Source: an uncultured Clostridia bacterium (lineage in GTDB: Bacteria > Bacillota > Clostridia > Christensenellales > UBA1242). Taken from it: a stretch of DNA of 64,000 nt. The stretch covers positions 64,422-128,421 of the forward strand of contig CALVJJ010000001.1 of NCBI GenBank assembly GCA_944332185.1, given 5' to 3'. The translations under genes and the position numbers were made by a program. Below the pieces are notes generated by a model that searched no databases, was not told the DNA's origin, and saw only the letters and a program-made list of their open reading frames with translations. This document shows, one piece after another, positions 15,267 through 46,711 of this stretch; position 1 is the stretch's first letter, and the number at the start of each line of letters is the position of its first letter.

Positions 15267-16457
15267 TTAGCCCCCGTAAGCTTCTGTAATATGATTGATC
15301 CATGCTTGTGGACAAGTAGACCAATAGGTATATTCTTCTGTATCGTAGATACCATCTTGGTTCCCACCCCAAATGGTAATATCTTCATTCATGCCATTAT
15401 CGAATCTTGTAATAATAGATGCATGATTTGCTGTACTCATTGCTTGAATGGTGATCTTAATGGTAAGATTTTGTCCTGCGAATTCTGATCCTATGTTTTC
15501 ACCAACTAGTTCTATACTATCAAACAAACGATAGGTTTTCGTTTTTGGTTCTAGTTGGTAAGCATAATAGTACCAGCCATCATCTTCTTTACAATATGGT
15601 GTGCCGTCCCAAGAATTAACAAGACTATCTTCTACTTCCTTGTCATAATGATACCAATAATCACTATTAGCTGTGACATGAATAAGATTATTCATCAGTC
15701 TACCATCATAATAAGCATCGACTCTATATCTAATATAGACAGTTTCCCAATTCCCCTTATCTTGTGGTGTAAAGGAATTCTGTGCCACAATTTCATTCGT
15801 GATCTTGTCCCCTGGATCTAGATCAGATACACTATACTTAAAGTCTGTAATCTCTGCATCTGTATATGTCACACCATCAATGCTAACGCTCACACGTGTA
15901 GATCCATCACTAGGTGGATTGATCCATGTCACATATACCCAATACGTACCACCAGCAAGCAAGCCGATGAGTAATAGGAACAGTAGCAAAAGTATCAACA
16001 ATCGTCTTCTCTTTTTCTTTGGTTGTTCTTGGGTATTCTGTAATGTTTTTCCTTTTGCTTTGGCAAGTAATTCTTGATTACGTAGTTGGATCTTTTCTCT
16101 TTCTGTAAGTGGTCTTCTTGGTTGGGAAGAAGTGTCTGTCTCTTGCAATCTTGCTTGTTTTATTCTTTCTTGCAGATCACTAATCGACGTATCTTCTTTT
16201 GGTTGATTGTCTACATTGTTCGATTGCTGTTGTACTCTTTTTTCTCGTTCTGCACGAAGTCTCTCTTCTTCTTGTTGTTTTGCTAGTTGCTCTGCTCTAA
16301 TTCTTTGCGATTCAGCTAGTACCGAACGAAAATCAAAGTTATTCTTCTGCTCTTGTGTTGGTCCAGCATTGGCTTTGGACTGCTCTTGCATTCTTTGTTG
16401 CTGGAGTCTTCTCGCTTTTTCTAGCAGATCATTCGTGTTGTTCCCTTTTTCTTTCAT
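15267..16457 (-). CDS. TL1: membrane-anchored TasA-like protein with long cytosolic coiled-coil tail
   Basis: 396 residues from an ATG with GGGAAAG upstream (a GTG four codons earlier is possible). About residues 1-150 are highly charged, rich in Gln, Glu and Arg, and probably a coiled coil in the cytosol. KKKRRR then precedes one membrane helix (about 152-175). The outer domain has the signature seen in the other TL proteins: a PG/DPGDKI stretch, VYIRYRVDAY, an aromatic DDGWYYYAYQLEP segment, TIKITIQAM and a C-terminal WINHI. This is the layout of SipW-dependent TasA/camelysin-type domains, but here on a protein that seems to keep a large cytosolic part. First gene of a unit with the deaminase and the transglutaminase-like protein. 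Confidence 0.7.
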   Translation of the reverse strand: MKEKGNNTNDLLEKARRLQQQRMQEQSKANAGPTQEQKNNFDFRSVLAESQRIRAEQLAKQQEEERLRAEREKRVQQQSNNVDNQPKEDTSISDLQERIKQARLQETDTSSQPRRPLTEREKIQLRNQELLAKAKGKTLQNTQEQPKKKRRRLLILLLLFLLLIGLLAGGTYWVYVTWINPPSDGSTRVSVSIDGVTYTDAEITDFKYSVSDLDPGDKITNEIVAQNSFTPQDKGNWETVYIRYRVDAYYDGRLMNNLIHVTANSDYWYHYDKEVEDSLVNSWDGTPYCKEDDGWYYYAYQLEPKTKTYRLFDSIELVGENIGSEFAGQNLTIKITIQAMSTANHASIITRFDNGMNEDITIWGGNQDGIYDTEEYTYWSTCPQAWINHITEAYGG

Positions 16458-16528
16458 AATCTTTCCCACTTACATGCTCACTCTTTTCTATATAGTGTGT
16501 GCATTATTCCCATTTTATTTCTAGTTCT

Positions 16529-16557
16529 ATTGTATCAAATAGAATAAAAAACAGCAA
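16529..16557 (-). promoter_or_regulatory. Promoter for the TL1 operon
   Basis: On the minus strand TTGCTG (16557-16552), a 17-base spacer, and TACAAT (16534-16529). It lies about 70 bases before the TL1 start codon. The 313-base gap between the divergent TL1 and TL2 genes otherwise holds only AT-rich sequence and the TL2 promoter candidates. Confidence 0.6.
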
Positions 16558-16629
16558 ATTGTTTAGAAGAATATTTCCAATATTATACTGAAAATTTTGT
16601 GTAAATAACTTTTGCTTTTTTACATCATT

Positions 16630-16657
16630 TTGTATCTTGTATGTGTTGTGATATAGT
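16630..16657 (+). promoter_or_regulatory. Candidate promoter for TL2-TL3
   Basis: TTGTAT, a 16-base spacer and TATAGT give a vegetative-type match about 110 bases before TL2. A second candidate lies closer: CATATACTA at 16743-16751 matches the CATANNNTA -10 pattern of the late mother-cell sigma factor of sporulation, with an ATA 15 bases upstream. Sequence alone does not decide between them. Confidence 0.4.
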
Positions 16658-16770
16658 ACCCAATGATCTTGGTGTTTTTAAAAAAAATAGTCTCCCACAA
16701 TTCCAAATACATATTCCCTAAAGTATAGACTTTCTTGGACTGCATATACTAAGCAAAAGGAGTATTTTGC

Positions 16771-17367
16771 ATGCAACCAATCACAAAAAACGTGTTGTGG
16801 GTGGTGGGTATTGTTGTCCTATTGGGTATCATGATCGGTGGATCACTAGCCTATTTTAGCAGTATTCGTTCGCAACGTGGAGATATTCAATTCGCCGAAG
16901 TTTCTGGTATCACCATGGGAGATATTCACCCCCTTACGAGTGAGAATAGCCTTATTATTCCCGGCGACCAAATACAAAATCCGATCTCTTGGCAAAATAT
17001 CTCTCCCATCGATCATTCCATTACAAGACAAGCCGATGTGTTCGTACGAGTCAGGCTAGATGCCACTTTAGATACGGTAGATACCAATGCCATACAACTG
17101 ATTTTTCAAAAACCACAACAATGGATCTGGGGTAATCAAGGGTATTACTATTATACCGGTTATGTCGCACCAGCAGAAACCATTGCTATCATCAGTGGAC
17201 TATCTGTCAGCACAAAACTGACTAGAATGTATTCTGGCAAAGATGTGAATCTAACCATTCATATCGAGTGTCTGCAAGCTCCTTACCAAGCCTACCAATC
17301 TGTCTGGGCAGATGCCCCACAATATTGGATAGACAACTATGCCAGCACGTATGAGGTAACGACATGA
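16771..17367 (+). CDS. TL2: putative SipW-dependent TasA-like secreted protein
   Basis: 198 residues; AAAGGAG lies eight bases before the ATG. The N-terminus is one hydrophobic segment ending GGSLAYFSSIRSQRGDI, the pattern typical of SipW-processed signal peptides (small residues, then A-Y/W-F). The mature part contains PGDQIQNPI, DVFVRVRLDA, an aromatic GYYYYTGYVAPAET segment, LTIHIECLQA and WADAPQYWIDNY near the end, the same order of features as in the other TL proteins. TasA-type proteins are secreted and polymerise into fibres. The gene overlaps TL3 by four bases (ATGA), so both are made together. Confidence 0.72.
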   Translation: MQPITKNVLWVVGIVVLLGIMIGGSLAYFSSIRSQRGDIQFAEVSGITMGDIHPLTSENSLIIPGDQIQNPISWQNISPIDHSITRQADVFVRVRLDATLDTVDTNAIQLIFQKPQQWIWGNQGYYYYTGYVAPAETIAIISGLSVSTKLTRMYSGKDVNLTIHIECLQAPYQAYQSVWADAPQYWIDNYASTYEVTT

Positions 17368-17939
17368 GACAAGAAAAAAAGATAAAGGTACAACGTATCA
17401 TCTATAGCATCAGTGTGGCTATTCTATTCTTCCTATCTATACTAGTCCTTTTCTATGTGCCAAATACGTTGAGTTATTTTTCACAATCTGATCAAAAAGA
17501 CACAGAGACCAAAGTCGGTACAGTATCTACTTTGATCTTACCTAGTACCACCAGTGCTTTTGTCTATGATGGCTCCCCCATCATCTGTCCTATGACCATC
17601 ACCAACATTTCTGATCTAACAGTCTATACCAGAGTCATGCCGATGATTCGGTGGCAAGACTATCTTCCTAATCCTAGTACCATGACCATAGTAGAAAGTG
17701 AAGACTATGTATTAAGTACTGATGATTGGTACTATATTCCTTCCTCTATTGCACCCAATGAAAGTCACACTTTTACCATACAATTAGATCTTATTCCTAC
17801 AGAATATCTAGGCAAAACTGTCTATCTGGATCTCTATGTCGAAAGTGTACAAGCTAGTCACTTAGCCTACCAAGATACATTCCCTACTGCACCTGAACAA
17901 TGGATAAAACTCATTACCCCATCATCTACACAAGCATAG
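17364..17939 (+). CDS. TL3: putative SipW-dependent TasA-like secreted protein
   Basis: 191 residues, coupled to TL2 by an ATGA overlap. Basic start, one hydrophobic segment (about residues 11-33) ending NTLSYFSQSDQKDT, then a beta-rich domain: ICPMTITNISDLTVYTRV, DDWYYIPSSIAPNESHTFT, VYLDLYVESVQASHLA and APEQWIKL at the end. The layout matches TL2, though overall identity by eye is low, so the pair looks like two different subunits rather than a recent duplication. The signal motif is LSYF rather than LAYF. Followed by a terminator shared with TL4. Confidence 0.68.
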   Translation: MRQEKKIKVQRIIYSISVAILFFLSILVLFYVPNTLSYFSQSDQKDTETKVGTVSTLILPSTTSAFVYDGSPIICPMTITNISDLTVYTRVMPMIRWQDYLPNPSTMTIVESEDYVLSTDDWYYIPSSIAPNESHTFTIQLDLIPTEYLGKTVYLDLYVESVQASHLAYQDTFPTAPEQWIKLITPSSTQA

Positions 17940-17976
17940 ACTCCTACATCTTCATTCTCTTATCATGCGATAGCAC

Positions 17977-18007: not shown

Positions 18008-18016
18008 CATTTTAGA

Positions 18017-18721
18017 TTAAGCTCCGATACCAAATGCATCATCCATTACAGCAGCAACTGCAGAAATAGTATTTGCTGTACTTGCTGTGCTTGCATCCAA
18101 ATATGTACTTTGAATTGCCTCTGCTATGAATTTTACAGTAATAGATTTCAAAGCAACTGCATTTGTCCAGTCAGATGGAACGCTAACTTTACCATCCAAG
18201 AAGGCAACACTTGCAGCAACTGATGTAGCATCTACTTCTTTCATGACAGTTGAATCACTCTCAACAGTTGCAACATCACTATTATCAACTGTAGGTTTAG
18301 TACCAACATAGTAATAATATTGATCATCACCTAATTTCCAACCTTTAGCAGCAGCAGCTTCTTTGATTTGGTCATTGAATTCTGTTGTTAATGTTTCAGC
18401 CTCAGTACCAGTAATTTCAACTTTCAATCTAAAGAATGCTTTTGTACTGCTTTTAGCCATGTTAACAAAAACTTTAGAATCAATTGGTTGTCCTGGGACT
18501 AAGTTGGAACCACTGAAAGTCACTTCAGCTGCGTCTTTAGTGTATTCATCATCACTTTCCATAGCGATGTTAATAGCACCACCCATGGTTAATGTACCAC
18601 TTGCTTCTCTTTTATCCAAGAACCATGCCATGGTACCTCCGACAGCAACAGATGCAAGCAAGAGTACACTTAGCACTGCAATCATCAAAGTTTTCACATT
18701 GAATTTTTTGGCTTTTTCCAT
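18017..18721 (-). CDS. TL4: putative SipW-dependent TasA-like secreted protein
   Basis: 234 residues; the ribosome binding site is AGGAGG. The signal region is the clearest of the set: a basic start, a helix at about 12-28, then VGGTMAWFLDKREASGTLTM, which strongly resembles the camelysin/TasA signal. The mature domain has LVPGQPIDSKVFV, AFFRLKVEITG, DDQYYYYVGTKP, ITVKFIAEAIQSTYLD. It is rich in Ala, Ser, Thr, Val and Asp with no cysteine, and less aromatic than its relatives, as expected for an abundant structural subunit. Single-gene unit with a good promoter, so it could be the main fibre subunit; this is inference. Confidence 0.8.
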   Translation of the reverse strand: MEKAKKFNVKTLMIAVLSVLLLASVAVGGTMAWFLDKREASGTLTMGGAINIAMESDDEYTKDAAEVTFSGSNLVPGQPIDSKVFVNMAKSSTKAFFRLKVEITGTEAETLTTEFNDQIKEAAAAKGWKLGDDQYYYYVGTKPTVDNSDVATVESDSTVMKEVDATSVAASVAFLDGKVSVPSDWTNAVALKSITVKFIAEAIQSTYLDASTASTANTISAVAAVMDDAFGIGA

Positions 18722-18758
18722 TTTTTCCTCCTATAATATTTTTTCATCCGACACCTAT

Positions 18759-18787
18759 ATTATAGAATTTTTTTAAAAAGTTGTCTA
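18759..18787 (-). promoter_or_regulatory. Strong vegetative-type promoter for TL4
   Basis: On the minus strand TAGACA (18787-18782), 17 bases, TATAAT (18764-18759), with start codon about 38 bases further on. The perfect -10 and spacing suggest high expression. Confidence 0.7.
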
Positions 18788-18920: not shown

Positions 18921-18948
18921 ATTTTTATAACAATTTTCATGCTATTTC

Positions 18949-19626
18949 TTATGCATTGGCATAGTTGGACAACCAATCTTCTGGCGCTGTTGTCCACACT
19001 TCACTTGCTGCACCATTGGCTTTTTGAATAGCCTCGACAACTACTTCTATACTAAAAGTCTTTTTGGCATCATCATTGGTGAGATCCGTAGGAACAGTGA
19101 TAGATGTCACAAAGTCTTGACTAGATCCTGCAGTAAATGTACCTTTGTAATAATAGTAATCATCACTATCGCCTTTTTGCCACGTATTTACTGTCGTGGC
19201 TTTTACTGTTTTTGATGCTCCATCGGTATTGGTAATGGTCAATTTTGCTCGTACCAATGAGTCAGATGTATCATCTGGTTGGCTGACACCGATAGCTTGG
19301 TCATAGACTGTACCAGGCAGTGCATTGCCCGGGAAAGTAAGACTTGATGCAGAACTTCCGCCTTGGGTAATATTGATATTGACAGGATTCCCTAAAGTAA
19401 TGGTACCACTGGCACTAGCGTTAGCTAGGAAGTAAGCAAGTGTTCCCCCTACGGCAATACTGATGAGCAGTAGTGCAGAAAGCACTGTCACAGCGATCAT
19501 TCCCCCTCTTTTCCTTCTTCTAGGTGTAGAAGTAGAAGACTGTGCAATGGAACTAAGTTGTTCTACTTTTTCTTCTTGTGTAGTTGGTTTTTTTGTAACA
19601 GTTTTTGTTGTTTTTTTTGTCGCCAT
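18949..19626 (-). CDS. TL5: TasA-like protein with Lys/Thr-rich cytosolic tail
   Basis: 225 residues. A cytosolic N-terminal tail of about 42 residues, rich in Lys and Thr and ending RRRKRGG, precedes the membrane segment and the SipW-type motif VGGTLAYFLANASASGTITL. The outer domain contains LPGTVYDQAIGV, LVRAKLTITNTDG, DDYYYYKGTFTAGSS, FSIEVVVEAIQKAN and APEDWLSNY. TL4 and TL5 share the ASGT(L/I)T(M/L)G stretch after the helix and are the closest pair by eye. AGAGG precedes the ATG. The tail recalls TL1 and raises the question of whether the signal is cleaved or kept as an anchor. Confidence 0.78.
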   Translation of the reverse strand: MATKKTTKTVTKKPTTQEEKVEQLSSIAQSSTSTPRRRKRGGMIAVTVLSALLLISIAVGGTLAYFLANASASGTITLGNPVNINITQGGSSASSLTFPGNALPGTVYDQAIGVSQPDDTSDSLVRAKLTITNTDGASKTVKATTVNTWQKGDSDDYYYYKGTFTAGSSQDFVTSITVPTDLTNDDAKKTFSIEVVVEAIQKANGAASEVWTTAPEDWLSNYANA

Positions 19627-21180: not shown

Positions 21181-23043
21181 CTACATACTTAAGTCTATAT
21201 TATTTTCTTCTTTTTCTTTTCCTTGATCTACGATTACTTTTGTACTTTGTGTTACACTTTTTTCTATAATTGCAACATGATTTTGTGGTGTAGACGTAGT
21301 TTGATTTGCTTCCTGGTGTAGTTCCATTCTTTGTTTTTCCACCATTTTTCTAGTCATTAAGAGAATCTTTTCCTCTATTGCTTTTTCTTTACTTATATTT
21401 TCTTCATTCTCTCGTGATGGATTTTGTTCCAAATTTTGATCCTTGGTATTTTCTTGAATCGCATTGATAATAATGACAGCATTGTCATCTTCTACAGATC
21501 TTGCTTTTGTAGATGATTTTTTCTCTACCGGCTTTTCTTGTCTTTCTTGGGTATTGGCACTGGCTTTACTTTCATAGATTTGACTGAGTCTATCAAAGAA
21601 TCCTGTAGATACTGTGCTCGTATTGGTTGTTGTTTTGTCTTTTCCCTTTTCTTTTTTCGTGTCTTTCCCAGGCTTTTTACTATCTTTTTTTGCTTCTTTT
21701 TTAGCTTCTTTCTTGGTTTCTTTCTTAGTCTCTTTTGGACTTTCTTTTTGTGTTTCTTTTGTTTTTTCTTTCTTCGTGGTTTGTTTTTTAAGTACATCTT
21801 CTTTGCCACTTACTTGGACTTCAGAACCATAACTAGATCTGTTGGCTAGATCTACTTTTGCTTTCCTTTCTACGATTGTAGCTGTTTTTTCTTTTTTATT
21901 CGCAACGAGTCCACTCACTGATGCTGATAAAAGGACCATTTTTTCTTGATTGGTTAGTTCTTTTTTATCTTTTTGTAGAATATTCTGTTGTCCATCTGCC
22001 ACCAGTTGTGTTCGCAATGCATCTTGTCTAACTTGTTGTTGTACTTTCATATTTTGCAAGGTATCATTTGCTTTTTGAGACAAATACTCTTCCAAATTGA
22101 CCGTTGTATCTTCTGTTTGGTTTTCTGCTTCCTTGATCACATTGACCATTTCAATCAAATTGGTTTTGTCATCTTTGGTGGCTGTTTTGATAATTTTTTC
22201 TTGAGCAGTTGTTTCTAATATTTTTGTTTCTTGTTTAAAATTCTCAAATTCTGTCTTTCTTAAATTCTGGAATTCTTCTATCACCGATTGACTCACTTGT
22301 TCGGAATCTTCAAAGGTAATATCTACTTTTTCAACAGCATTATTGATAATATCCATCATGTCTTTATCTTGGATATCTTCCATCGTTTTGCCTTCCAAAG
22401 TTTTGAGTGTTGCGTAGATCTCCATACCTGTTTCTATTTCATTTAGCACTGCTTCTGTATAGGCACATGGGTGAGATTTTAAGAATTGTAATTGTTTTAC
22501 ACATACTTGATTGCTCAATTTTTTAATCTGCTTGTCTGTAATCATTCTTACGGCAATATTATATTTTACAATTAGATCCATAAGAGCAGTTTTGTCTTCT
22601 TGATAGAGTTTTTTCTCTTCTCCACTATCTTCATCTTTTATATATACATTAAAATCTGCAAAAGCACGCAACAACACATCTTCTTTGTACTCATACGTAC
22701 TGCTACAAATATTCGTGACAAGTTGATTGGTTACCATGCCATCAGCAATCATTACTTCTTCTAGTAATGCAAAATTCACGATCACTGATTGTCCATCATT
22801 GATCAGTTGGTAATTCATGAGAATGGTTAGATCTTTTGCAACATTAGATAGATGACATGACAAATAGATAGTCTCTCCCACCATACTATCCAAATATTTT
22901 TTAGCTTTGATCAGTTCTTCAATCACAGCTGTTGGCAAGATATATTGCCCTTGTTCATTCATGCGACCTAATAAATTGTTGTCGTGAATTTTGACATTCA
23001 TGACAGATACAGTTGCATCATCTTTTGTGATTTCCTCTTGCAT
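21181..23043 (-). CDS. Large cytosolic protein with Lys-rich low-complexity middle, unknown function
   Basis: 620 residues from the ATG at 23043, chosen because AAGGAG lies six bases upstream; the frame is open further but without a ribosome binding site. No signal peptide or membrane helix. About residues 1-190 form a compact mixed alpha/beta domain, residues 190-390 are helical and coiled-coil-like, and residues about 410-475 are a Lys/Glu/Thr repeat (units of KETKKE and KEAKKE type). A charged, probably disordered tail ends in a helix. I do not recognise the family. It is the one large intracellular protein in the surface cluster and is divergent to the 590-residue lipoprotein; a scaffold role is a guess. 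Confidence 0.75.
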   Translation of the reverse strand: MQEEITKDDATVSVMNVKIHDNNLLGRMNEQGQYILPTAVIEELIKAKKYLDSMVGETIYLSCHLSNVAKDLTILMNYQLINDGQSVIVNFALLEEVMIADGMVTNQLVTNICSSTYEYKEDVLLRAFADFNVYIKDEDSGEEKKLYQEDKTALMDLIVKYNIAVRMITDKQIKKLSNQVCVKQLQFLKSHPCAYTEAVLNEIETGMEIYATLKTLEGKTMEDIQDKDMMDIINNAVEKVDITFEDSEQVSQSVIEEFQNLRKTEFENFKQETKILETTAQEKIIKTATKDDKTNLIEMVNVIKEAENQTEDTTVNLEEYLSQKANDTLQNMKVQQQVRQDALRTQLVADGQQNILQKDKKELTNQEKMVLLSASVSGLVANKKEKTATIVERKAKVDLANRSSYGSEVQVSGKEDVLKKQTTKKEKTKETQKESPKETKKETKKEAKKEAKKDSKKPGKDTKKEKGKDKTTTNTSTVSTGFFDRLSQIYESKASANTQERQEKPVEKKSSTKARSVEDDNAVIIINAIQENTKDQNLEQNPSRENEENISKEKAIEEKILLMTRKMVEKQRMELHQEANQTTSTPQNHVAIIEKSVTQSTKVIVDQGKEKEENNIDLSM

Positions 23044-23101
23044 AAGAAACTCCTTACTATGATATCCACAACATGATATCTTTCTTATCATTCTTATGTA
23101 T

Positions 23102-27459: not shown

Positions 27460-27473
27460 ATTTTTCCTCCTTT

Positions 27474-30001: not shown

Positions 30002-30033
30002 AAAAAACACTAACAAAATTGTTAGTGTTTTTT
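30002..30033 (-). terminator. Terminator after sipW
   Basis: AACACTAAC and GTTAGTGTT pair around AAAATT, with A- and T-runs on the flanks, directly after the sipW stop codon. Confidence 0.9.
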
Positions 30034-36500: not shown

Positions 36501-39228
36501 TATTTAATTTGACTTGATACCCAGTAGCTGTAATACCATAACTAGTCAAATCTCCAGTAGACCAAGTTAATTTTCCTTGTGCCATAGCAAGTTGTGGAGT
36601 GTTTAATTTGTAAAACTCTTTTGCTTGTGTTTGTACTGATGTCAAATATCCTATTCCAGATGTAACACTGTTGCCTATTGCATACACGGTGGCCAAATAT
36701 GCACCAGATTCTGCTACTTGAATCGTATAAGTGTTGGCAGATACTTGTTGGGTGTATTTGACTTCATGATTTTGAGAGATAGTCACTTGATATGCTGTAG
36801 CACCTGTGACAGTATCCCAAGATAATGACACGACATTATCTTTTTTTGTCATAGACACAGCATTCATGCCTAAAAGTGTAATTTTCATTGCTGGACTATA
36901 TGCGCTACTTAATTTCCCATTTTGTTTGACTCTGACAGCAACTTCATAAGGTGTTTGCATTGTCAAATACGATCTAATATCCACTGTGATATCTTCTGTT
37001 GTAATGACTGTAGCCAAGGCTTGATCTTGATAGATGGCTAGTTCATAAGTAGCTTCTTCTAGTATTCCACTTTGCTCATTTTCTACAATGACAAGTTCGC
37101 CATTTACCGTTTTGACACCTTCTGGAGTATACAACATAGCAAAACTATATTCTGTCCCTTTACTCATGACAGTATTATAATTATTACCCCAAGCATAGAT
37201 GGTAATAGTATTTTGCCCTGCTACTGCATGACGTGGTGCATATTGTGTTTGATTTCCAATGTAATAATACTGCGCATTTTGTGATTCTTTGATGATATAC
37301 CCAGTGGACTTTGCCACACTAGAGAACGAAATGGTCTGTGTATCATCATGGAATTCTATATCTTCAAAATCTGTATTTGGTAATACTTCGAATGTAAAAC
37401 CGTAAGTCGTTGTATCTTGAAAATCTACTGTACTAGAGATGACAGCATTTTCCCCATTGGCTTGTACCCATACATGATAGATCGCTGGATCCATCACAAA
37501 ACCAAATGTGTAATTTGTATCAGTTGTTGTAGCCACTCTAGTTGCTTGTTCACTGCCTTTTTGCAGGTAAATGGTATAACTCGTAGCATTTTGAACAGCT
37601 TCCCATTCTACGGTTGGATTCACCCAATCCGTGATGATCTCTAGATTATCACTTTCTGGTACTGTTGTTTTTGTGCCTTGGTTGGTTACACAGGTAATAG
37701 TGGCATTATTGAGTTTTTCAATTTCGATTCCATCTATTAGTAATTTGTTACTATTGACTAGATTCAATCCGGTATTTTCTTTTGCAATCACTCGAATGGC
37801 AATGTGATATAGACCTGCATTTTCAATAATCAGTCCTACTTGACTACTGTTGCCTGTGACGATACTTGAGTAGGAATCAATTTCATTTTCATAATAGATT
37901 TGGTATTCTTCTACTCCAATCACACTTTCAAATGTCAAAAGATTGCCCGTTAGTTTTACACTAGATGGATTGATAGATCCGATCTTGGTAAAGGAAAGTA
38001 CTTCACTGATAGTTCCATCAATGGTATTATCTTCCCCATGTGCCATTACTTGTAAATGATACTCCCCTGCATTCAATTCTTCAGGGATTTTGTATTCATT
38101 CACATAGACATCTTCTTGTTTTACTTCTAGTCCATCTGTGGTTGTGATTTTGACCGTATAATAGGTCGCATATTCTACGGTATCCCAACGAATGATTGAC
38201 TGATCTTGTCCATTGTGAATGGTAAAATTCGCAACTTGAGAAAGTGGATAAATTGTCAAAGAATGGGACCACTCACTTTCCAAATACACATATTTTGTAT
38301 CTGTTGATGGGTGAATAGCTTTGACTCGAATAGAGTACTCATCATAAGAAGGAAATTCTTCTAATAAAGCATACGTTATTTCTTCTTCTCCATTACTAGG
38401 AATAGTTACTATCGTCGTAGTTGGTTGTCCATGATCTAGGTAGGTAATTTCTACTTGATAAGCATTGGCTCTAGCAACTGGATCAAAATAAATGACACCA
38501 TCTTCTTGACGAATATCTGTCACTGTTTCCAATGCTGTAAAGTATAACTCTTGTGAATAACTACCATCTGCTGTTGTGGTACCATTACCATTTGCTTTGA
38601 CTTTTACTGTATATTCATGTCCTATTGTAAAATCTACCACTTGGTATCGTACGATATTTTGATAAGTTGGATCATAATAGACAGTAATAGGATCCAAAGT
38701 TTCTGCATTGTCAGTCATCACCAATGTGTAATTCTTGGCATCATCGATCTTATCCCATATCACATATCCATCTTCATAGACTAGATGTGTTGGAGTAGGT
38801 AAAATGGTAGGATCTACTACTTGGAAAGTAAAGGTATCTGATCGAACAGGTAGACTTTTTGTCTCAATATGTACAGTCACTTCTCCACGATTGACAGCAT
38901 GAATCAACACACTACCCATGACTCCGTTTTGTGTTGTTTCCACAATTTCTGCTGCATCAGCAATTCCTGTAAAAAATACATTCACATCATTTTGTGTGGA
39001 AGTACCTGGTCGAATTTGGTAATCTATCTTAATGGTAGAACCGACATAGACAAAATTTTCACCATCAACAACATAATCTCCAATGGAATCTTTGTTGTTG
39101 ATCGTCAGTGAAATAGGCGTGGTCACAATGGTTGGTGTATCATTCTTACTAGAACAACTGCACCCCCCTAAAATAGCTACACAAAAGATAGCAAAATACA
39201 TTAAAATTAAAGATGTTTTCCTTTTCAT
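30535..39228 (-). CDS. Giant lipoprotein with >20 fibronectin-III-like modules and a GLUG-like C-terminus
   Basis: 2897 residues without interruption. Lipobox LGGC (Cys23) gives a membrane anchor. From about residue 140 to 2400 there are more than twenty beta-sandwich modules of about 90-120 residues, each opening with a pattern such as DG-x-I/L-x-W-D-x-V-x-x-A-x-x-Y-x-V (examples: EDGYVIWDKIDDAKNYTLV, NNQFLWETVEHATGY, VSNGILTWDLGNATKF). This is a fibronectin-III-like pattern. From about residue 2430 (GSGSQKDPYIIST) the sequence turns into repeats such as YVGGLVVNN and TISNI, like GLUG repeats of bacterial adhesins. No sortase motif is present. It precedes sipW in one unit. Likely a long stalk or adhesin tied to the fibre system. 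Confidence 0.85.
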   Translation of the reverse strand: MKRKTSLILMYFAIFCVAILGGCSCSSKNDTPTIVTTPISLTINNKDSIGDYVVDGENFVYVGSTIKIDYQIRPGTSTQNDVNVFFTGIADAAEIVETTQNGVMGSVLIHAVNRGEVTVHIETKSLPVRSDTFTFQVVDPTILPTPTHLVYEDGYVIWDKIDDAKNYTLVMTDNAETLDPITVYYDPTYQNIVRYQVVDFTIGHEYTVKVKANGNGTTTADGSYSQELYFTALETVTDIRQEDGVIYFDPVARANAYQVEITYLDHGQPTTTIVTIPSNGEEEITYALLEEFPSYDEYSIRVKAIHPSTDTKYVYLESEWSHSLTIYPLSQVANFTIHNGQDQSIIRWDTVEYATYYTVKITTTDGLEVKQEDVYVNEYKIPEELNAGEYHLQVMAHGEDNTIDGTISEVLSFTKIGSINPSSVKLTGNLLTFESVIGVEEYQIYYENEIDSYSSIVTGNSSQVGLIIENAGLYHIAIRVIAKENTGLNLVNSNKLLIDGIEIEKLNNATITCVTNQGTKTTVPESDNLEIITDWVNPTVEWEAVQNATSYTIYLQKGSEQATRVATTTDTNYTFGFVMDPAIYHVWVQANGENAVISSTVDFQDTTTYGFTFEVLPNTDFEDIEFHDDTQTISFSSVAKSTGYIIKESQNAQYYYIGNQTQYAPRHAVAGQNTITIYAWGNNYNTVMSKGTEYSFAMLYTPEGVKTVNGELVIVENEQSGILEEATYELAIYQDQALATVITTEDITVDIRSYLTMQTPYEVAVRVKQNGKLSSAYSPAMKITLLGMNAVSMTKKDNVVSLSWDTVTGATAYQVTISQNHEVKYTQQVSANTYTIQVAESGAYLATVYAIGNSVTSGIGYLTSVQTQAKEFYKLNTPQLAMAQGKLTWSTGDLTSYGITATGYQVKLNTGKLETVSGLSYYADLDAGKYTATVTAIGDDVNIISSEDSIALEFDKLAVGSLTLQNGVLQIVDSQIEGVSYNIYHVVKSDTGVMYETIQAGIKDSSTNIGSMLVAGKTYQLIVEVTHDDYMTSNKNKTAFEVEKLPSPTQFRIQNNQFLWETVEHATGYAIDASNTMEYHQDLDALTLSTALPVLPNAGEFDFSLTAIGDSVRYVSSAPTATSTYQLSGVSNVRVEDGILVYDYVDRQQPVRFELELVQGETRTTLDNKLQKSFAFKDTDQQKYVGNYQVTITVIGDGSSTISSTQKETIAVTKLSTATNLIVGKKASVISGVIQGVLQWKAPSNATPTTKYILYLNGAPILLEEAKDAETVQRVGYEFYEEDGVLYYSGNQFVAEQQNHIAIACYDEETGNIITSETTVDAVIQGMQAPQNLAVVLNDQTNTATLTWNAVNGATSYMIYEVVSQEGNEDPTLTLIAQTEENQYYMVNTDIEGTTHQYVVLAVGSDQVSLTDGAIGYWTSAISTPISYTTLGQITGLQVSNGILTWDLGNATKFMIKMYDYEEGIDTSYTQKDALKVIDNMYETTYELEELGQGGKYFIALYPLGDGKTVLSNDIPATITVTKLSPLQNVRVINGILTWDLPFATINSMMQYQNMEGEIQPFDYQAGVELANLVKKYHGGQMTPQETTYFNSLAQLVYFELGAANLGMNGSSVGIFAYQKLVVSTIVSDDENQKLILSYDDMIYNSQTSIMRASGYYQIKLRSLGNTGDTEAQYDLFVNANYPSSLMTVYRSIAPQSIATGEGDTYISSYIHNETIIFKKVPFIQQGEEEVTTLDTTYVVEYGSYDMNMAITYQEYIVPQKNLSGQYGEVNVRELLNATSPINQGKDFYIRVRVLGTEDSTAVDPDETIILRSGVGTSSKTQILTEAIPFVKDGELMWGTGAVSNALQYEVHVYKITSKDDVIGQQEADIVRIYDSKIITYEDLDVDFAEHQFGAGWYAFKVRALGDGTAFLNGEWSPEVKVYRLPEILQGGNTIDLDYGDFVWTPNWVDAVVTSPTAAKAMVYQSAEQNGGYTTDKEYSIVSSQLGEQSRLAIGDQYLQYVDGLLQYYKIAIANMVEDDEQPTEDNFAYLRSSYTTMDTGYSRLSAPTGLRIENGKITWDGTGNQFEVMVNGTILEEKVFGKTFSLDANYKAGSYEIKLRNLADSITQQLSSVFSNSITVTKLNAPDLRLEQGKIVWNTSSVGFEEVGEIAVEILQGNLAIFKQSYTGTTTNLDLNTITLGNGEYLQPNVVYTITVQFKSVLGNTTYVDGEIARMNFTILQHVTLSTDDADTSAGNFIKWNSIDHALGYKVYVYVPNTDGVYEYDSEYIVYVDQVDQQKDFEYDPEQNVWKFSIANIQQSVYRIYVEAMGSTISADQNTQDHLYASSLLIDEDSYMDIELPQTPVVDVQSLQQNGKIVWTNKTTTAYPVLEYSYMRNGETISSGPIVLAKSATTYYLPTIAQQYTVKIYAMNDLGVMSLPFDFTANYSIYASGSGSQKDPYIISTAEQFLAIRERNTISYESVDGTVALHYYFQLSDNITLSNSYTKMEKLDGVILGNGKTLTIPNTYTESLFGTITKDGSVTNLVITKNNNISKSTYRLIADTNNGTIDGLSLTISGTYTVNNLAFVAGTNTGTISNISVVANALTVMPASTSNELHVFMITEWNQGTIVNITLSGSLTTYTGTSGEIIVAGVAYTNDKTIKHVVNTMNMTNNTNESQSISYASKLAGIVYENKQLVEQCGVEGVLSGSNIAGIIYQNYAQLNTSYFTGSIRAVQVTKDSNNSVSPIYVGGLVVNNLNRYLGADMDPRISNSYVLINSDNLVLDSNVSSLTENFAYVGGLVTYNNSAVAVSSASIVNCYVVIHDITSTNNRYQFGQIAYSSNAKQNGYSIFNNVYYYSNCQNQTLIKTYESSEITMSNNTLSLTGVTVYTDLSQMTGLTLEFVASSDHVKLKWQA

Positions 39229-39704: not shown

Positions 39705-39737
39705 AAAAAAATCAAGCAAAATAATGCTTGATTTTTT
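39705..39737 (-). terminator. Terminator after the 1996-residue protein gene
   Basis: AAAAAAATCAAGCA pairs with TGCTTGATTTTTT around AAATAA. It overlaps the end of the stop codon. Confidence 0.9.
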
Positions 39738-42700
39738 ATAGATCTGCACCCCATGTTGCATATAGTGTCATATCACTTGTTACAACTATTTCCGTAAGCA
39801 CGGTATAGTCTTTGTTTTGTATGTTAGATATCAACACATTGCTAGCACCGGTCGTATTCCAAGTCACAACACGCATATCATAACTATCTGTAATCCATAC
39901 ACATTGATAGGTATAGGTACAATAACTTGTATATAAAGATGGATCAATCGTATCCCCTTCTAACACATAAATATTTTCTACTGTGTTTGGTGCTTTCACA
40001 CAAGTAATTTTTCCTTGGAATGCACTATTTTTATCTATCCATGCTGAAGGTTTTACCCAACCTAAATTAAAGGATACCACATACCAATTTTTACGTTCTT
40101 CTTCTACAACAGAAACAATATTTCTATCTGTATTGCTCATCACAAAATTGGTAAGGTACTGACCATTTTCTTGGTACCCTAAGAAATGGTAAATCATGCG
40201 ATATGCTAATTTTCCACCCTCTTGATAGTCAATACTATACTCTACCTGTTCTGGTAATTGAAAGGTTTCTCCTTGGTACAAATCAAGTGTTTTTGTATAT
40301 TGTGTATGCTGTTGATCTACCTTTTCATAATATGTATAAGTTACTCTATAACGATTGCGAATATGTAACACAAGATCTTGATCAGGCATAGTATCCTGAT
40401 ACGTTGTGGCTTGTGTGTATTCTGCATCTAGATACCATTTGGTAAATTTATCAATTTTGATCCTATCTGGCAACGAGATCACATCTCCTACTTTCCATAA
40501 CCCTTGATACACAATTTCATTTTGGTCTAGAATGGTCAAAGATCTTTCTTTGACAATACTTAAAACTTCCCATTGTGCATAGATCGTAAGATCGTGGCTT
40601 GGCATCATACCTGTAAATTCTTCACGATATTCTGGATCTACATACCACCCTAAGAAATGGTATGTAATGGTCGTACCATCTGTATTCTCTACGATCGTAT
40701 TCCATGATGGAAGTGATACAGTATCTTGTTCATAACACTGCATAGCTGGTAATGATTCCCCATGATCTGTAACAAATTGCAAGGTATAAGAAGTTTGAGT
40801 ATAGGTGGTAATGAATCTAGCATACAAATTTTGACTTACAGAAGGTATTAAGGTGATTTTATCTCCATTTTGATCTGCCCAACAATCAAATGTTTGAAAT
40901 AGTTTTTGATTGCCTTGAATAAGAATACGATCTTGTAAATAATTTTCTTTGATAGCAGTTCCGACCAATCCATAGTACTGATCTATGAGTTGGTCATCTA
41001 CATAGTAGAATATAGTACGATATGCCTCTTTCTCTACCCATTTTGCATATAGAGTTAGGTCCCCTCTGGTGATCACCGTTTTTGTATATTTTTCACCTTC
41101 AAAAGTTGGTGTTGTATACCAGCCATCAAAAGTATAGATAGTCTTATCTGTATCCGTTTCAACCACTTTATTTGGTAAAGTTGGCAAAGTATAGACAGTA
41201 TCAATAGCTCCTGTCACATTTTCAACTTCTTGCCCACCGTTTTCTTCAAAACTTACCGTATAGACAGTGGCACTAGCAAGTGTCCAATTCCCATTACTTG
41301 CGTGCCAATATTCGTCTACTTTATATGGATAACTATTGATATAATTTTCCATTTCTGCAAAATCAATTTCTTGCCCAATAGTATTTAGCGTAAGATCAGT
41401 ACTTGTAATATCTACCTTAAATGCACTAGAGATTGGCATATGTACTTCCAATGCCCCTTGCACAATGTACTCTTTTTGATCTACTGGACTCGTGGTAAGA
41501 CGAATGGTCATGGTATCTAAGTCACTATTGTTGGCTAACTCTGCAAGATTTAAGATCAATTCATAGGTGTTATCAGTCTTACCAAAACCTAGTAAAATAT
41601 TACTCATATCTAATGGAGTCGTTCGGTTCATAGCTTTATCGACTGCTACTTGAATCTCGTCCATGATAATGTCTTGGAATCCACAACCATAACTTAATAG
41701 CATCATAGGATCAGCCAAAAATTCTTCCAAAGTCATTTTTAATTTTTTCTCATATTTTCTATCAGAACTTGCAAATCTAGGAATATTTTCACTTCGATAA
41801 AAATACACATAGCCATCTGCAAAATATACTTTCAAGATTCTATCTTTTCCACAATTCACACCACTAATGGTATCACCAAAAACATAAGGAACATCATTAT
41901 CAATTGGTGCAATGACTGGAATTGGTCCAACAGTTAGCATGATTTCTGGTTTTTGATCACGCAGACGAATTGCAAGATCAACTGGTACACTCATAGAGAT
42001 GGCATCACTTAAACTCAAAACTTCCATGGTAATATCTAAAGTAGCTGTGATATGGAAATATTGCAAACTTGATGTATCTATAAAAGCTTTGACTAATGGT
42101 GCACAATCAGACAAATCCATATATTGTTCTTTATCTGGTAATTGTTGCACTCCTTGAAATTCATTGACAAAGATAGACAAATCGAATTTTTCAGTTGGTG
42201 TCACCCCTGAATAAAAGTCTTTAATTATAATACCACTTAATGCATGGTCATTGGTAATGATATCAATGGTGACATCTTGACTATTTTCCACCCCACTTAA
42301 TTTTGAACCATATAATGTAATGGTCAAAATGGAATCATGAAAACTTACCTTTTTAATATAGGTTAGTAGCATCAGTGGTTGTGTTGGATCAAACGATGGA
42401 ATCAGTTGTTGCAAATTCTCTAGATCTAGTTGCATATCTTGTGCGACATCTTGTAAGAAATCTAATTTTGAAGTATCAATACCCAAAACACTAGCGAGTA
42501 TATACGCTAATTCCTTGAGACAATCTTGTGACATTTTGACTTTTAATTTGTTGTAATTGACATACAGCATTTTGTCTTCATAAGCAAGATTAAATTCCAT
42601 ATCTTGCAATCCAGTCAGTTTTGCCTCGCCGAACAATGCAAAAGTGTTTTGCCAATCCATTTCTAATTGACAGTTGGCAACATATTGAATACTATTTTCT

Positions 42701-45700
42701 TCATAAACTGTTGCATTAGCAGACACACTGACTTGTTTTGTTTCTATGATACCCATGATACTGTCAATAAGTTGTGTGAGCATCGTATAATGTTGGAATT
42801 GTGTAGGATCAACTTCAATCATCACTGGCGACCATACTACCCCTGCTTTGATAGAAAGTTGTGGAGCAGATAGTTGTACTTGCCAACTTTCTTGTCTACT
42901 AAGTGTAAGCATAAACTGATCCAAGAAAGATAAGGAGATAGTATTATTCTTCGTTGTGATACTATCTAGACTATCTAAAGATAGATCACTGGTATAGACA
43001 CTAGGCAACTTAAAATCTGTACCAAAACGAGCATTGATCCACTCCAACAGCATTGGAATTTCGTCCAATCCCATTGCAATACGAAGCCCTGCTACTGTCA
43101 TATATACTGTCGCATGATCCAAGATTGCTTCTATATCTAATCCATAAAATTGTGTGACTACTTTTGCTTTTAAGTTTTCAATATCACTTAGACTTTTCAT
43201 TTGACGAGCATCTAGTTCAAAATCTACTTGCACTTCTAGATCTTGATACTGAATATCTAATGTGCCTTTTGCTTGTTTTTCTTGATAGAATTGTGCAAAA
43301 TCTTGTACGAATGGCAACACATCTTCTACCTGTACAGTAGATGGTAATGGAGTAATACTTGGTTGTTTTCCCCAATCTATCTGTATGGTAACATCAGCCA
43401 CTCCGTGATAGCTGATACTTTCCAATCCTTGTGCAGAATAGACAAGACGGATTTCCTGTCCCATGGCACTACCAGATAAACTATACTGATATTTTTCTTG
43501 TTGTAATTGTAGACTATCTATTGTAAGAGTTTGCAAAAATTGTACAATTTGATCAGTAGATATAGATAATTGTGGCAATACTATTTCCCCATTAGGTAGA
43601 TATGTTTCTAGTACTTTTTGAATATCTTCCACTGGGAGATGATAGTCATTAGATAGAATATCGAATAATTGTGTAAGAGTAGTGATCTTGGTGGATACGA
43701 CTATGTTGTTGATAGATAACGTAAGGAGTCCATTCTGCAACACGACACCTAGTTGATATCCTTGCATGGTAGTATGAATTTCTACATTTAGACCATTACG
43801 AAGATCTAAGGCAATATCGAATAGGTATGTATGGTCTTGTAGACATAGTTCTACTTGCCCTACTACTGTTTTTTGATCTATCACAGTCATTATATGTTGT
43901 GCTAGAATATCTATACTTTCCAAAGATAGATAAGCTTCTTTTTCTACCGTTGGTATTGTCATTGGTTGAAGATTTACTACAGCATGGATCTTGTCTAGAT
44001 AAGATACAGCAATGGTGGACAAAGATTGACTGTCTCTTGCGATATTAAGTTGTAGTCCTTGATACGATAATTGGAATTGTGTATCATTCCATACTATGAT
44101 ATGTAAACTATCTAAAATAGACAAAATATCCAATGTAGCAAAGTCAATTTTGTCAATAGATACCGTAGGTAATTCTATCTTCATTCCATATTTTGCTAGA
44201 TAAGATTGCACTTCTTTCCATGTAGTTTTGATATACACTCCATCTAGATGTAGATAGACAACTTCTTCTTGATACCATATCTCTATTGGTTGCCCAAATA
44301 GTGTAGTAGAAATATATAGTTGGATTCCTGCATTCCAATCTACCATCATATTCCCTGATACAGTAATATCTTGATAAGTTGCAGAGAATTGTCCTGCAAT
44401 TTGTTTTTCTTCCATGATATCCATGATAGTATCAAGATAAGAAACTACTGTTGTAATGGAAGTAAACGATCCTTGTGGTTGTTGAATAGGTGTATTCCAT
44501 GTCTCAAAGCCAATATGAATATGATGAGATTGCCATTGCCAGTCAATATCGTTTAATTTTCCATCTGCATCGCTTTGCAAAAGAATTGTTCCATAGTGTG
44601 CCAACGTGATCTTAATTCCACCATCTATTTGTTCAATGTTTTGAATGATCTCTTGAATAGCAAGAGTATCTAGCGAGATGGTAGGTAGGACAAGTTGTGG
44701 AAAATATGTTTGCATTATTTTTTGGATTTCTTCTATGGTAGCTTCTATATGTATGGATCCAATACTTACATAGATATGATCCTCTACCACGATGATTTCC
44801 ACAGTTTTACCATTGATTGTCCCCCGGAATTGCAAAGCAAACCCATTATCTGTTGTGATGGCTATAGATCCATCAATCATATATCCAAACAGCTCTCCTT
44901 CAAAGCAGAATTGGAAAGCATCATATCCTTGATATCCCAACAACATAGATATTAGATGATACGCATTACTAATATCCAAATAGGTATCTTGCTTGACAGC
45001 TGGTATGCTAAAATCTTCTGCATTGCATACCATATCGACATCTAACGAGAAGGTAATACCTGCAATAGTCGTTGGTTCTATGATGACTTTTTCCATGGTA
45101 TAAGTTTCATCTAGTAAGATGGTTGCATGGATCAAATCTTCTACCAAAAATTCTAATTGGTATCCTCCTTCTCTTTCACTGGTGTGTACATATTGCAATA
45201 AGGAAGTCAAACTGCTGATATCTAATTCCTCTAAATTCCCTAATCCTAATGCATCTAAAAAAGACAAATCTAAATTGTTGATATAAGGTTTTAAGATAGA
45301 CAAAAGTGGTTGCAAACTATCTAGTAAATGAGAAGTATTGATCTTGATATTTTGACCAAGTAAAGATAGATAAGCTGTCGATTCTTCATAATGTAAATAG
45401 ATTGGCAGTTGTTGATCTTGATAGACAACAAAAAGATTCGCATCTACTTTTAGCGTAGGTGTCACTTGTAATAACACATTCCCTGTTAAATCTATGGTTG
45501 TGCCCTGATATTCGCCACGAATGTGAATAGTAAGATTCATATTCTTGGTTGCAAGAGTTTTAGACACCATTCCATCTAGAATAGGATCGCTCGTATCTGT
45601 TTCTCCTCCTGCCAATAATCCATAACTATCCGAATCACCAGAGACTTTATATACCATAACCATCGTTCCTGCCGAAGCTAAGAATACGATGAGAAAAACC

Positions 45701-45726
45701 ATAAGGTATTGTAATAATCTTTTCAT
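39736..45726 (-). CDS. Giant surface protein with tandem ~190-residue repeats and InlB-type C-terminal repeats
   Basis: 1996 residues. One N-terminal membrane segment (about 5-25) with no lipobox. Residues about 55-1220 hold about seven repeats of 175-230 residues, beginning near 60, 255, 432, 605, 805, 982 and 1212. Each has a short helix, a beta-rich stretch with G-x-(I/L) strands (for example GQFSATYQDITVSGNMMVDW), a VYL-x-(L/V)-x-G-(V/I) strand, and a second helix around LPT. The alternating pattern recalls the LolA/LppX lipid-carrier fold; this is inference. From about residue 1485 four or five InlB-type (Listeria-Bacteroides) repeats follow, with YTFDGWYTTP, LTLYAKW, YHFLGWYVDP and LTIYAQW. 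No sortase motif. Third gene of an operon; GGGAG precedes the ATG. Confidence 0.82.
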   Translation of the reverse strand: MKRLLQYLMVFLIVFLASAGTMVMVYKVSGDSDSYGLLAGGETDTSDPILDGMVSKTLATKNMNLTIHIRGEYQGTTIDLTGNVLLQVTPTLKVDANLFVVYQDQQLPIYLHYEESTAYLSLLGQNIKINTSHLLDSLQPLLSILKPYINNLDLSFLDALGLGNLEELDISSLTSLLQYVHTSEREGGYQLEFLVEDLIHATILLDETYTMEKVIIEPTTIAGITFSLDVDMVCNAEDFSIPAVKQDTYLDISNAYHLISMLLGYQGYDAFQFCFEGELFGYMIDGSIAITTDNGFALQFRGTINGKTVEIIVVEDHIYVSIGSIHIEATIEEIQKIMQTYFPQLVLPTISLDTLAIQEIIQNIEQIDGGIKITLAHYGTILLQSDADGKLNDIDWQWQSHHIHIGFETWNTPIQQPQGSFTSITTVVSYLDTIMDIMEEKQIAGQFSATYQDITVSGNMMVDWNAGIQLYISTTLFGQPIEIWYQEEVVYLHLDGVYIKTTWKEVQSYLAKYGMKIELPTVSIDKIDFATLDILSILDSLHIIVWNDTQFQLSYQGLQLNIARDSQSLSTIAVSYLDKIHAVVNLQPMTIPTVEKEAYLSLESIDILAQHIMTVIDQKTVVGQVELCLQDHTYLFDIALDLRNGLNVEIHTTMQGYQLGVVLQNGLLTLSINNIVVSTKITTLTQLFDILSNDYHLPVEDIQKVLETYLPNGEIVLPQLSISTDQIVQFLQTLTIDSLQLQQEKYQYSLSGSAMGQEIRLVYSAQGLESISYHGVADVTIQIDWGKQPSITPLPSTVQVEDVLPFVQDFAQFYQEKQAKGTLDIQYQDLEVQVDFELDARQMKSLSDIENLKAKVVTQFYGLDIEAILDHATVYMTVAGLRIAMGLDEIPMLLEWINARFGTDFKLPSVYTSDLSLDSLDSITTKNNTISLSFLDQFMLTLSRQESWQVQLSAPQLSIKAGVVWSPVMIEVDPTQFQHYTMLTQLIDSIMGIIETKQVSVSANATVYEENSIQYVANCQLEMDWQNTFALFGEAKLTGLQDMEFNLAYEDKMLYVNYNKLKVKMSQDCLKELAYILASVLGIDTSKLDFLQDVAQDMQLDLENLQQLIPSFDPTQPLMLLTYIKKVSFHDSILTITLYGSKLSGVENSQDVTIDIITNDHALSGIIIKDFYSGVTPTEKFDLSIFVNEFQGVQQLPDKEQYMDLSDCAPLVKAFIDTSSLQYFHITATLDITMEVLSLSDAISMSVPVDLAIRLRDQKPEIMLTVGPIPVIAPIDNDVPYVFGDTISGVNCGKDRILKVYFADGYVYFYRSENIPRFASSDRKYEKKLKMTLEEFLADPMMLLSYGCGFQDIIMDEIQVAVDKAMNRTTPLDMSNILLGFGKTDNTYELILNLAELANNSDLDTMTIRLTTSPVDQKEYIVQGALEVHMPISSAFKVDITSTDLTLNTIGQEIDFAEMENYINSYPYKVDEYWHASNGNWTLASATVYTVSFEENGGQEVENVTGAIDTVYTLPTLPNKVVETDTDKTIYTFDGWYTTPTFEGEKYTKTVITRGDLTLYAKWVEKEAYRTIFYYVDDQLIDQYYGLVGTAIKENYLQDRILIQGNQKLFQTFDCWADQNGDKITLIPSVSQNLYARFITTYTQTSYTLQFVTDHGESLPAMQCYEQDTVSLPSWNTIVENTDGTTITYHFLGWYVDPEYREEFTGMMPSHDLTIYAQWEVLSIVKERSLTILDQNEIVYQGLWKVGDVISLPDRIKIDKFTKWYLDAEYTQATTYQDTMPDQDLVLHIRNRYRVTYTYYEKVDQQHTQYTKTLDLYQGETFQLPEQVEYSIDYQEGGKLAYRMIYHFLGYQENGQYLTNFVMSNTDRNIVSVVEEERKNWYVVSFNLGWVKPSAWIDKNSAFQGKITCVKAPNTVENIYVLEGDTIDPSLYTSYCTYTYQCVWITDSYDMRVVTWNTTGASNVLISNIQNKDYTVLTEIVVTSDMTLYATWGADL

Positions 45727-45736
45727 GTTCTCCCTT

Positions 45737-46711
45737 CTATAACAAAGTTACATTGTCATACTCAAACTGCATCAGCAAACTGCCACCACAAGTCACAGTC
45801 ATACCGTATGTTACTTTGTATTCTTCTTTAATTGTAATGGACAAAAATCTTCCATTTTGATCCACTGAAAATTGCACGGTCACATAATTAAATTTTGGGG
45901 AATCTAATCCACTCATTTTGCTCATTTGTTTGACATAATTGATAACGGAAGCTTGTGGGTGTAAGGAAATTTCACATTGATATACCCCTTCCACAAGATT
46001 CTTTGTCCCTTTACCTATGACTGTTCTAGTTCCCACAACATAAGGAATGACACCCGTTGGGCTAGTTCCCCATTGTTGTTTGTATTCTTCTGCACTTACC
46101 TTTTCTTCTGCGCCATTCCATGTTGCAGCCCCATCATTTTCTGGTTTCCCTGACTGCACAATGACATCACTATTTACAGTATAATGCATTTGATAGGCTA
46201 CATTTTTAATGCCTTTACTAATTTGGTTGTTGTAATACTGATCACCTTGTTTTTGAAATGTAGACCAAACCAACTGATCTGTCAGCGGATTGGTGACCTT
46301 CCCACTCGCATTCATTTGGTATTGATACTCTTGTGACAGTTTGTATTCTCCCACTACAAATATTTCTGCTGGAGTCAAAGAAGCAATATTCTTTTTTAGC
46401 AAACTTGGAATATTATCTCCTGCCCGTAACGATGTTTCATCATACATAGAATAATCCACTTTTGATAAAAATGCTTCTACAATATAATTCCCCACAAATA
46501 TTCCACTAAAGCAGCCCATCACAGCAAAGACACAGATGTTCAGCCAAAATCTTTTTTTTGTGATTTCTTTTTTTCTTTTTTTCTTCTTTTTTGTTTTACT
46601 TTCTTTTTCTTGAATAGATTGCAGTTGTTGTTTTTTATCATCTTCGATCAGCAAGGTCTGTGTCTCGACCGTTGTCGAAGTATCTTTTATATTTTTTTTC
46701 TTTTGTTTCAT
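45737..46711 (-). CDS. Membrane-anchored protein with Lys-rich cytosolic tail, unknown function
   Basis: 324 residues. About residues 1-52 are strongly basic (KTKKKKKRKKEITKKR near the end of the tail), followed by one membrane helix (about 55-80) and an outer domain of 240 residues. The outer domain has two cysteines near the end (QCEIS; TCGGS) that could form a disulphide. I recognise no family. The start overlaps the stop of the transposase-like gene (ATGA), and the giant protein gene follows after 10 bases, so all three are in one operon. The layout of basic tail, helix and outer domain resembles TL1 and TL5. It may be a membrane partner of the giant protein. Confidence 0.75.
   Translation of the reverse strand: MKQKKKNIKDTSTTVETQTLLIEDDKKQQLQSIQEKESKTKKKKKRKKEITKKRFWLNICVFAVMGCFSGIFVGNYIVEAFLSKVDYSMYDETSLRAGDNIPSLLKKNIASLTPAEIFVVGEYKLSQEYQYQMNASGKVTNPLTDQLVWSTFQKQGDQYYNNQISKGIKNVAYQMHYTVNSDVIVQSGKPENDGAATWNGAEEKVSAEEYKQQWGTSPTGVIPYVVGTRTVIGKGTKNLVEGVYQCEISLHPQASVINYVKQMSKMSGLDSPKFNYVTVQFSVDQNGRFLSITIKEEYKVTYGMTVTCGGSLLMQFEYDNVTLL

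Follow-up and report, generated by a model that had tools for sequence, protein, structure and literature searches.

What would a bacterium with a genome of about 1 Mb do with eight divergent TasA-like proteins and a dedicated signal peptidase? The Gram-positive fibres of the TasA type known to us are made of a single main subunit with few helpers, if any. The question is raised by a 64,000-nucleotide stretch of contig CALVJJ010000001.1 from an uncultured Clostridia bacterium of the lineage UBA1242 (the whole stretch is referred to here as the window), which encodes the eight proteins, termed TL1 to TL8, together with a SipW-like peptidase, a giant lipoprotein and a transglutaminase-like lipoprotein. 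A preliminary description of this DNA proposed that these components form a multi-component surface fibre. Its observations were confirmed in part, the main points holding, and its interpretation is supported in part; TL1 to TL8, sipW and the large open reading frames (ORFs) lie where it had placed them. The locus is a genuine multi-subunit variant, conserved in the family, of the SipW/TasA/BsaA kind, and it probably encodes a SipW-dependent extracellular fibre system of the TasA/BsaA type, built from several subunits and serving as a matrix or a surface appendage. The host metagenome-assembled genome (MAG) is 962 kb in 20 contigs and ∼97% complete; the related genomes of the family are also MAGs, 0.5-2 Mb in size. 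The source is a tiny-genome member of the gut Clostridia and, as it carries spoIVA, a spoIIE-like gene and, in the window, a gerA operon, is probably a spore-former.

The paralogy of the eight TL proteins extends far beyond chance. TL1 (15267-16469), TL4 (18017-18721), TL5 (18949-19626), TL6 (27474-28163), TL7 (28214-28840) and TL8 (28998-29690) are encoded on the minus strand, while TL2 (16771-17367) and TL3 (17364-17939), whose ORFs overlap by 4 bp, are on the plus strand. Pairwise phmmer matches connect the six proteins TL2 to TL7 (TL4-TL5, ∼1e-21; TL2-TL5, about 1e-16 (2e-16); TL4-TL6, 1e-12; TL2-TL3, 2e-9), and profiles built without the tested protein recover all eight at E<1e-7, including the two most divergent members, TL1 (3e-13) and TL8 (6e-10). 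Excising the transmembrane segment left TL1 recoverable at 1e-6, TL8 at 3e-5 and TL3 at 7e-4. The common order of features noted previously is right in outline, although the (A/S)(Y/W)F motif is present in six of the eight proteins (TL2, TL3, TL4, TL5, TL7 and TL8), being missing from TL1 and replaced by LAIM in TL6, and an exact EA(I/V)Q strand is found in four, TL4 to TL7. The SipW-type signal peptide model TIGR04088 gave 17.3 and 16.3 bits, below its cut-off of 19. The most likely start codons of TL8 (TTG at ∼29690, behind a GGAGGAGGT ribosome site) and TL6 (ATG at ∼28163) were moved inward. A ninth TL paralog stands alone between spoIIE-like and tilS-like genes on contig 12 of the same genome, G000 (L001:898-1674).

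The TL proteins are, by sequence, distant homologs of TasA. A profile of the mature region, made from 40 family members with the signal helix excluded, was searched against 177,635 Protein Data Bank (PDB) sequences and found two TasA structures first, 8aur (E=2.3e-4) and 5of1 (8e-4), in agreement with the kinship originally proposed. Each of these matches combines two distinct segments, one in the N-terminal SG...PGD region and the other in the EA.Q strand. The archaeal bundling pilus 9rhp was matched weakly, at E=1.6. In a 50-member alignment of the TL family, which takes in a few Bacillaceae proteins, 17 of the 50 match the BsaA model TIGR04090 at E<=0.01 (best 6e-37) and 11 match camelysin, PF12389 (best 3e-12). 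The structure model of TL5 is a confident β-sandwich (pLDDT 83) in which the N-terminal stretch that follows the helix, residues ∼68-84, is unpaired; the fold is consistent with that of TasA rather than proof of it.

The peptidase gene, sipW (30036-30533, minus strand), encodes an ER-type (S26B) signal peptidase that scores 86.3 bits with TIGR02228 against a cut-off of 51.85. A Ser-His pair takes the place of Ser-Lys, and both residues, Ser55 and His94, are invariant across the orthologs in both alignments. The Bacillus SipW equivalog model NF046067 gave 75.1 bits against a cut-off of 190, and the enzyme is a relative, distinct from the Bacillus equivalog. A terminator-like hairpin (30002-30033) lies just 3' of the gene. 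The earlier statement that a single SipW is present is correct within the window but not for the genome: contig 2 encodes a second S26B peptidase, which is above the TIGR02228 cut-off and is fused to several membrane helices. A small secreted protein of the SipW type is encoded two genes upstream of it, so that the genome has a further system of lesser size (L041:6987-9754).

The gene set is conserved across the family. The SipW alignment was searched over 147 family genomes, and 18 with scores >100 bits, a cut-off of our own, were assigned to the same sipW class. A gene of the giant lipoprotein type adjoins sipW in 16 of these 18 (in one the contig ends, and one has none), and the giant lipoproteins form one connected homology group. 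Gene order is kept in several genera. In g9 (L065, L069) a single strand carries the giant gene, sipW, TL8, TL7, TL6, a TL5/TL2-like gene, a TL4-like gene, TL1, the transglutaminase gene and gerAA, the run extending to gerAB in L069. The order in g14 (L052, L063, L064, L067) is giant, sipW, TL8, TL7, TL6, TL1 and transglutaminase, and this order is repeated in L070 except for the giant gene, which is missing because the contig ends. A shorter form of the giant-sipW-TL order occurs in g5, g6 and g8: sipW is inverted in g8 (L045) with its place unchanged, and in g5 and g6 the giant gene, sipW and two TL genes are complemented by a second block elsewhere with a TL5 ortholog and further TLs, which in g6 runs on into the transglutaminase gene and gerAA. 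In g35 one block (transglutaminase, cdd, TL1, TL2, TL3; the TL1-TL3 neighbourhood is seen in L165) and another (LP745-like, LP590-like, TL6, TL7, TL8) copy the window arrangement, with TL5 standing alone. Across genera, sipW is co-conserved with TL6-TL8, TL1 and the genes of the giant lipoprotein and the transglutaminase, a result that supports the original interpretation.

The TL proteins also fall into separate subunit types. In the tree the TL1 (99/95), TL6 (99/95) and TL7 (97/94) of the window cluster with the proteins that hold the corresponding positions in other genera. TL6 keeps its place after TL7, and TL7 after TL8, whose orthologs in three further genera are encoded between sipW and TL7; the TL8 core group is firm (100/97), less so when the window TL8 is included (87/85), and the TL4 group is weak (84/66). 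As the orthologous groups are separate, distinct subunit roles are likely, in line with what had been surmised from the number and divergence of the proteins. Between 5 and 12 TL matches were found in 14 of 15 genomes with this sipW class, compared with 0-1 in all 13 sipW-less genomes (14/15 versus 0/13; Fisher p=7e-7, kinship ignored), and TasA-like genes conserved singly, without sipW or the giant gene, were not seen. The pattern holds within g9, where G093 and G113 carry the whole set while G008 and G070 are without sipW and transglutaminase and have one TL match each. Across bacteria, 72 of 80 SipW-type loci have two or fewer TL-like genes within ∼10 kb, a survey in which distant loci are undercounted because the TL profile is tuned to the family; the highest count outside the family, seven, is near a SipW-type gene in a Clostridiaceae MAG (L113:10521-18469), and we do not present eight as being without precedent.

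Individual TL proteins carry features that suggest different positions in a structure. TL1 has a long basic cytoplasmic N-terminus, a transmembrane helix and then the TasA-like domain, and the SipW-type cleavage motif is missing in all eight aligned orthologs. The protein is probably a membrane anchor or base, a place in a fibre for which it would be the natural choice. TL4 is preceded by the best promoter of its block (18759-18787; TAGACA-17-TATAAT, 11/12 of the sigma-A consensus), making it a candidate for an abundant subunit, as is TL5, the most conserved of the eight, with orthologs down to E=3e-85. TL8 has an extended -10 sigma-A-like promoter. Sigma-A-like matches are overall no commoner than in shuffled sequence, and the TL4 and TL8 promoters therefore count by strength and place only. 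In TL8 a lipobox, LTGC, directly precedes the SipW-type AWF; it does not occur in the orthologs, and TL8 may be lipidated in this genome only.

The giant lipoprotein (2,897 residues; 30535-39228, minus strand) has the lipobox LGGC and repeated Ig/Fn3-like modules, its gene ends 1 bp before sipW, and fn3/Ig-like Pfam matches were found in its relatives. It is probably a membrane-tethered scaffold or adhesin. The transglutaminase-like lipoprotein (12842-14866, minus strand) matches PF01841 with 50.8 bits against a cut-off of 23, and its C470, H505 and D520 are invariant in the five orthologs aligned. Retention of the Cys-His-Asp triad makes an enzymatic role, in cross-linking or trimming, likely. 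The PF01841 superfamily also contains proteases, and the protein, whose gene is a core member of the set, is probably a cross-linking or processing enzyme. Two further lipoproteins are possible accessory parts: LP745 (25249-27486, minus strand) adjoins TL6-TL8 both here and in genus g35 (L167, L168), and LP590 (23402-25174, plus strand) has a homolog beside TL6 in L167. The two were correctly described as paralogs; their similarity is weak but real (E=4e-7, 22% identity). Between the two TL blocks lies a gene for a 636-residue Lys/Glu-rich protein (21181-23091) with no family match.

Both very large surface proteins had been assigned to the TL set. This stands for the 2,897-residue lipoprotein, which is beside sipW in relatives, but not for the 1,996-residue protein (39736-45726), which contains Listeria-Bacteroides repeats. 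The latter is separated from the giant lipoprotein gene by 507 bp and a terminator-like hairpin; a hairpin of this kind sits at its end. Homologs are found across the family independently of the TL system, including in the sipW-less genomes G001, G008, G012 and G070; they are absent from most system-bearing genomes and do not adjoin the system. The pair of genes encoding this protein and one of 324 residues is adjoined at 46708-47484 by an ORF that, by eye, resembles an IS200/REP-type transposase.

On the other side of TL1 the locus runs into a germinant-receptor operon, gerAA-gerAB-gerAC (8861-12842, minus strand; TIGR02887, TIGR00912, NF052514). TL1, cdd, the transglutaminase gene, gerAA, gerAB and gerAC (8861-16469) share one strand with gaps of 8 bp or less, a figure that assumes the cdd start corrected to ∼15264. 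The gerA and transglutaminase genes are adjacent in g1, g6, g8, g9 and G170, and within a few kb of each other in g29 and g24; the system is not beside gerA in g14 and g35. The four gerA-less, SpoIVA-bearing genomes tested (G008, G070, G024 and G031) have neither sipW nor the transglutaminase gene, and 0-1 TL matches, while SpoIVA itself is found in nearly every family genome, with the system or without it. Crude Bacillus-type patterns for sigma E, F, G and K showed no enrichment upstream of the system genes relative to shuffled or other upstream regions. We read the association of gerA with TL1 and the transglutaminase as real; the promoter evidence does not show sporulation control, and we regard the operon as a linked neighbour, not as a part of the fibre.

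From these data, and by analogy with TasA, we infer a scheme of cleavage, polymerization, subunit roles, tethering and cross-linking. The TL pre-proteins would be exported by the general secretion route, and for most of them SipW would make its cut, through the Ser-His pair, where the signal helix ends in T-x-(A/S)-(W/Y)-F. The N-terminal stretch so freed could act as a donor strand that completes the β-sandwich of the next subunit, as the mature N-terminus of TasA does (PMC9674648). The different TL proteins would occupy different places, with TL4 and/or TL5 abundant, TL6-TL8 conserved minor components and TL1 the membrane-anchored base. At the membrane the structure would be tethered or presented by the giant Ig/Fn3-like lipoprotein, while its cross-linking or trimming would fall to the transglutaminase-like lipoprotein. 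In Bacillus, TapA starts the TasA filament by strand complementation (PMC10151520). In Clostridium perfringens BsaA polymerizes, and its secretion needs SipW (PMC7395162).

Several observations weigh against a common fibre of this kind. None of the eight window proteins passes the curated cut-offs for TasA, camelysin or BsaA: TL4 reaches 19 bits with PF12389 (cut-off 22.5), the remaining TLs scoring lower or not at all, and the mature part of TL5 reaches 26.9 bits with TIGR04090 (E=3.7e-6; cut-off 60 bits). The structural comparison with TasA is mixed. The TL5 sandwich is confident, but its Foldseek search gave no match at E<=0.001 and placed TasA outside the top 50, the weak matches favouring chaperone-usher pilins, RbmA and adhesin modules over TasA (the archaeal bundling pilus 7ueg is at rank 43), and the TL8 model is poor and unreliable. 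The TL blocks of g35 lie apart from the sipW-giant pair, and in G170 (L068; 87% complete) no TL was found although both sipW and the giant gene are present. Finally, that the parts join as one fibre, with contacts between the TL proteins, is inference.

The TL proteins, or pairs of them, might instead form several homopolymeric fibres, each under its own promoter, that share no more than SipW and the anchor. The strong sigma-A promoter of TL4 and the extended -10 promoter of TL8 would fit such an arrangement, as would the separable blocks and solitary TL5 of g35 and the finding that BsaA polymers form without BsaB or BsaC (PMC7395162). We nevertheless consider it unlikely, as the order TL8-TL7-TL6 is fixed and co-directional across genera, and many TLs are retained together in the majority of system-bearing genomes, against 0-1 in sipW-less ones. 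A different reading of the same proteins is that they do not polymerize at all but are single β-sandwich adhesins or binding proteins near the giant lipoprotein. Single-domain adhesins and Ig-like modules are indeed among the structural neighbours of TL5, and TL1 and, through its lipobox, possibly TL8 look membrane-held. However, by sequence the mature-region profile matches TasA best, a protein that polymerizes, and to our knowledge the SipW-type peptidases studied together with such substrates yield fibres or polymers, so that a non-polymerizing set appears quite improbable.

The linkage to gerA raises the further possibility that the fibres, or a layer, are formed on or inside the spore and made with the adjacent receptor. 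TL1, the transglutaminase and gerAA-AB-AC are tightly packed on one strand, gerA and the transglutaminase gene are again linked in g6, g8, g9 and G170, the four gerA-less genomes tested are also sipW-less with 0-1 TL matches, the ninth TL gene is beside spoIIE, and TasA was originally described as spore-coat associated (PMC9674648). Against this, the sporulation sigma patterns are unenriched and the TL4 and TL8 promoters are sigma-A-like, SpoIVA is near-universal in the family regardless of the system, and the systems of g14 and g35 do not adjoin gerA; a spore structure is therefore rather unlikely. More speculative, and in our view improbable as a whole, is a composite TasA-type appendage of at least six non-interchangeable subunits with its own transglutaminase-like cross-linker and giant Ig/Fn3-like tether, co-expressed with the germinant receptor. 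If this were true, the appendage would act on spores or on cells that are emerging from them.

A multi-subunit, SipW-dependent fibre system remains the preferred interpretation of the locus. Little is retained unused in genomes of ∼1 Mb, and the upkeep of distinct TasA-like types in them suggests for these fibres a construction like that of composite pili, in which a base, a shaft and minor components are distinguished. The locus provides a testable candidate for surface-matrix building in uncultured gut Clostridia, and it may connect fibres of the TasA type with genes for spore germination. Three of its elements, the giant lipoprotein, the transglutaminase-like lipoprotein and the gerA linkage, are additions undescribed for the SipW/TasA/BsaA kind in searchable papers; literature searches on SipW with transglutaminase and spores, and on SipW-dependent signal peptides, which covered few subscription journals, returned no description of such a locus.

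Comparison with known systems places the locus as follows. The archaeal bundling pili (AbpX) are also TasA-related donor-strand fibres, as the weak matches to 9rhp and 7ueg recall; they differ in being archaeal and are not known to carry this gene set. The tapA-sipW-tasA operon of Bacillus subtilis likewise has a SipW-type peptidase beside distantly homologous TasA-type substrates, and a separate initiator or anchor subunit may be a further common feature. Its one TasA plus TapA stand in contrast to the eight paralogs of the window, which also has the giant lipoprotein, the transglutaminase-like lipoprotein and the gerA linkage. In B. cereus sipW-calY1-bc_1280-calY2 there is, again, more than one TasA paralog per SipW, although the paralogs are two only, no giant lipoprotein or transglutaminase is described, and the TL proteins, unlike the camelysins, are below the camelysin cut-off. 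The baseline of one or two substrates that the preliminary description assumed for Bacillus is thus about right (TasA and TapA in B. subtilis, two camelysins in B. cereus; PMC10151520, PMC9674648). The C. perfringens locus sipW-bsaABCRSD differs from the window in having a two-component system in the operon and fewer secreted subunits, with no giant lipoprotein, transglutaminase or gerA linkage. It is, however, clostridial and has a single SipW alongside a principal protein that forms polymers and some additional secreted ones, and its BsaA model is matched by TL5 and by the 17 relatives noted above. As BsaA is accompanied there by three further putative secreted proteins (PMC7395162), several substrates per peptidase are not new in themselves.

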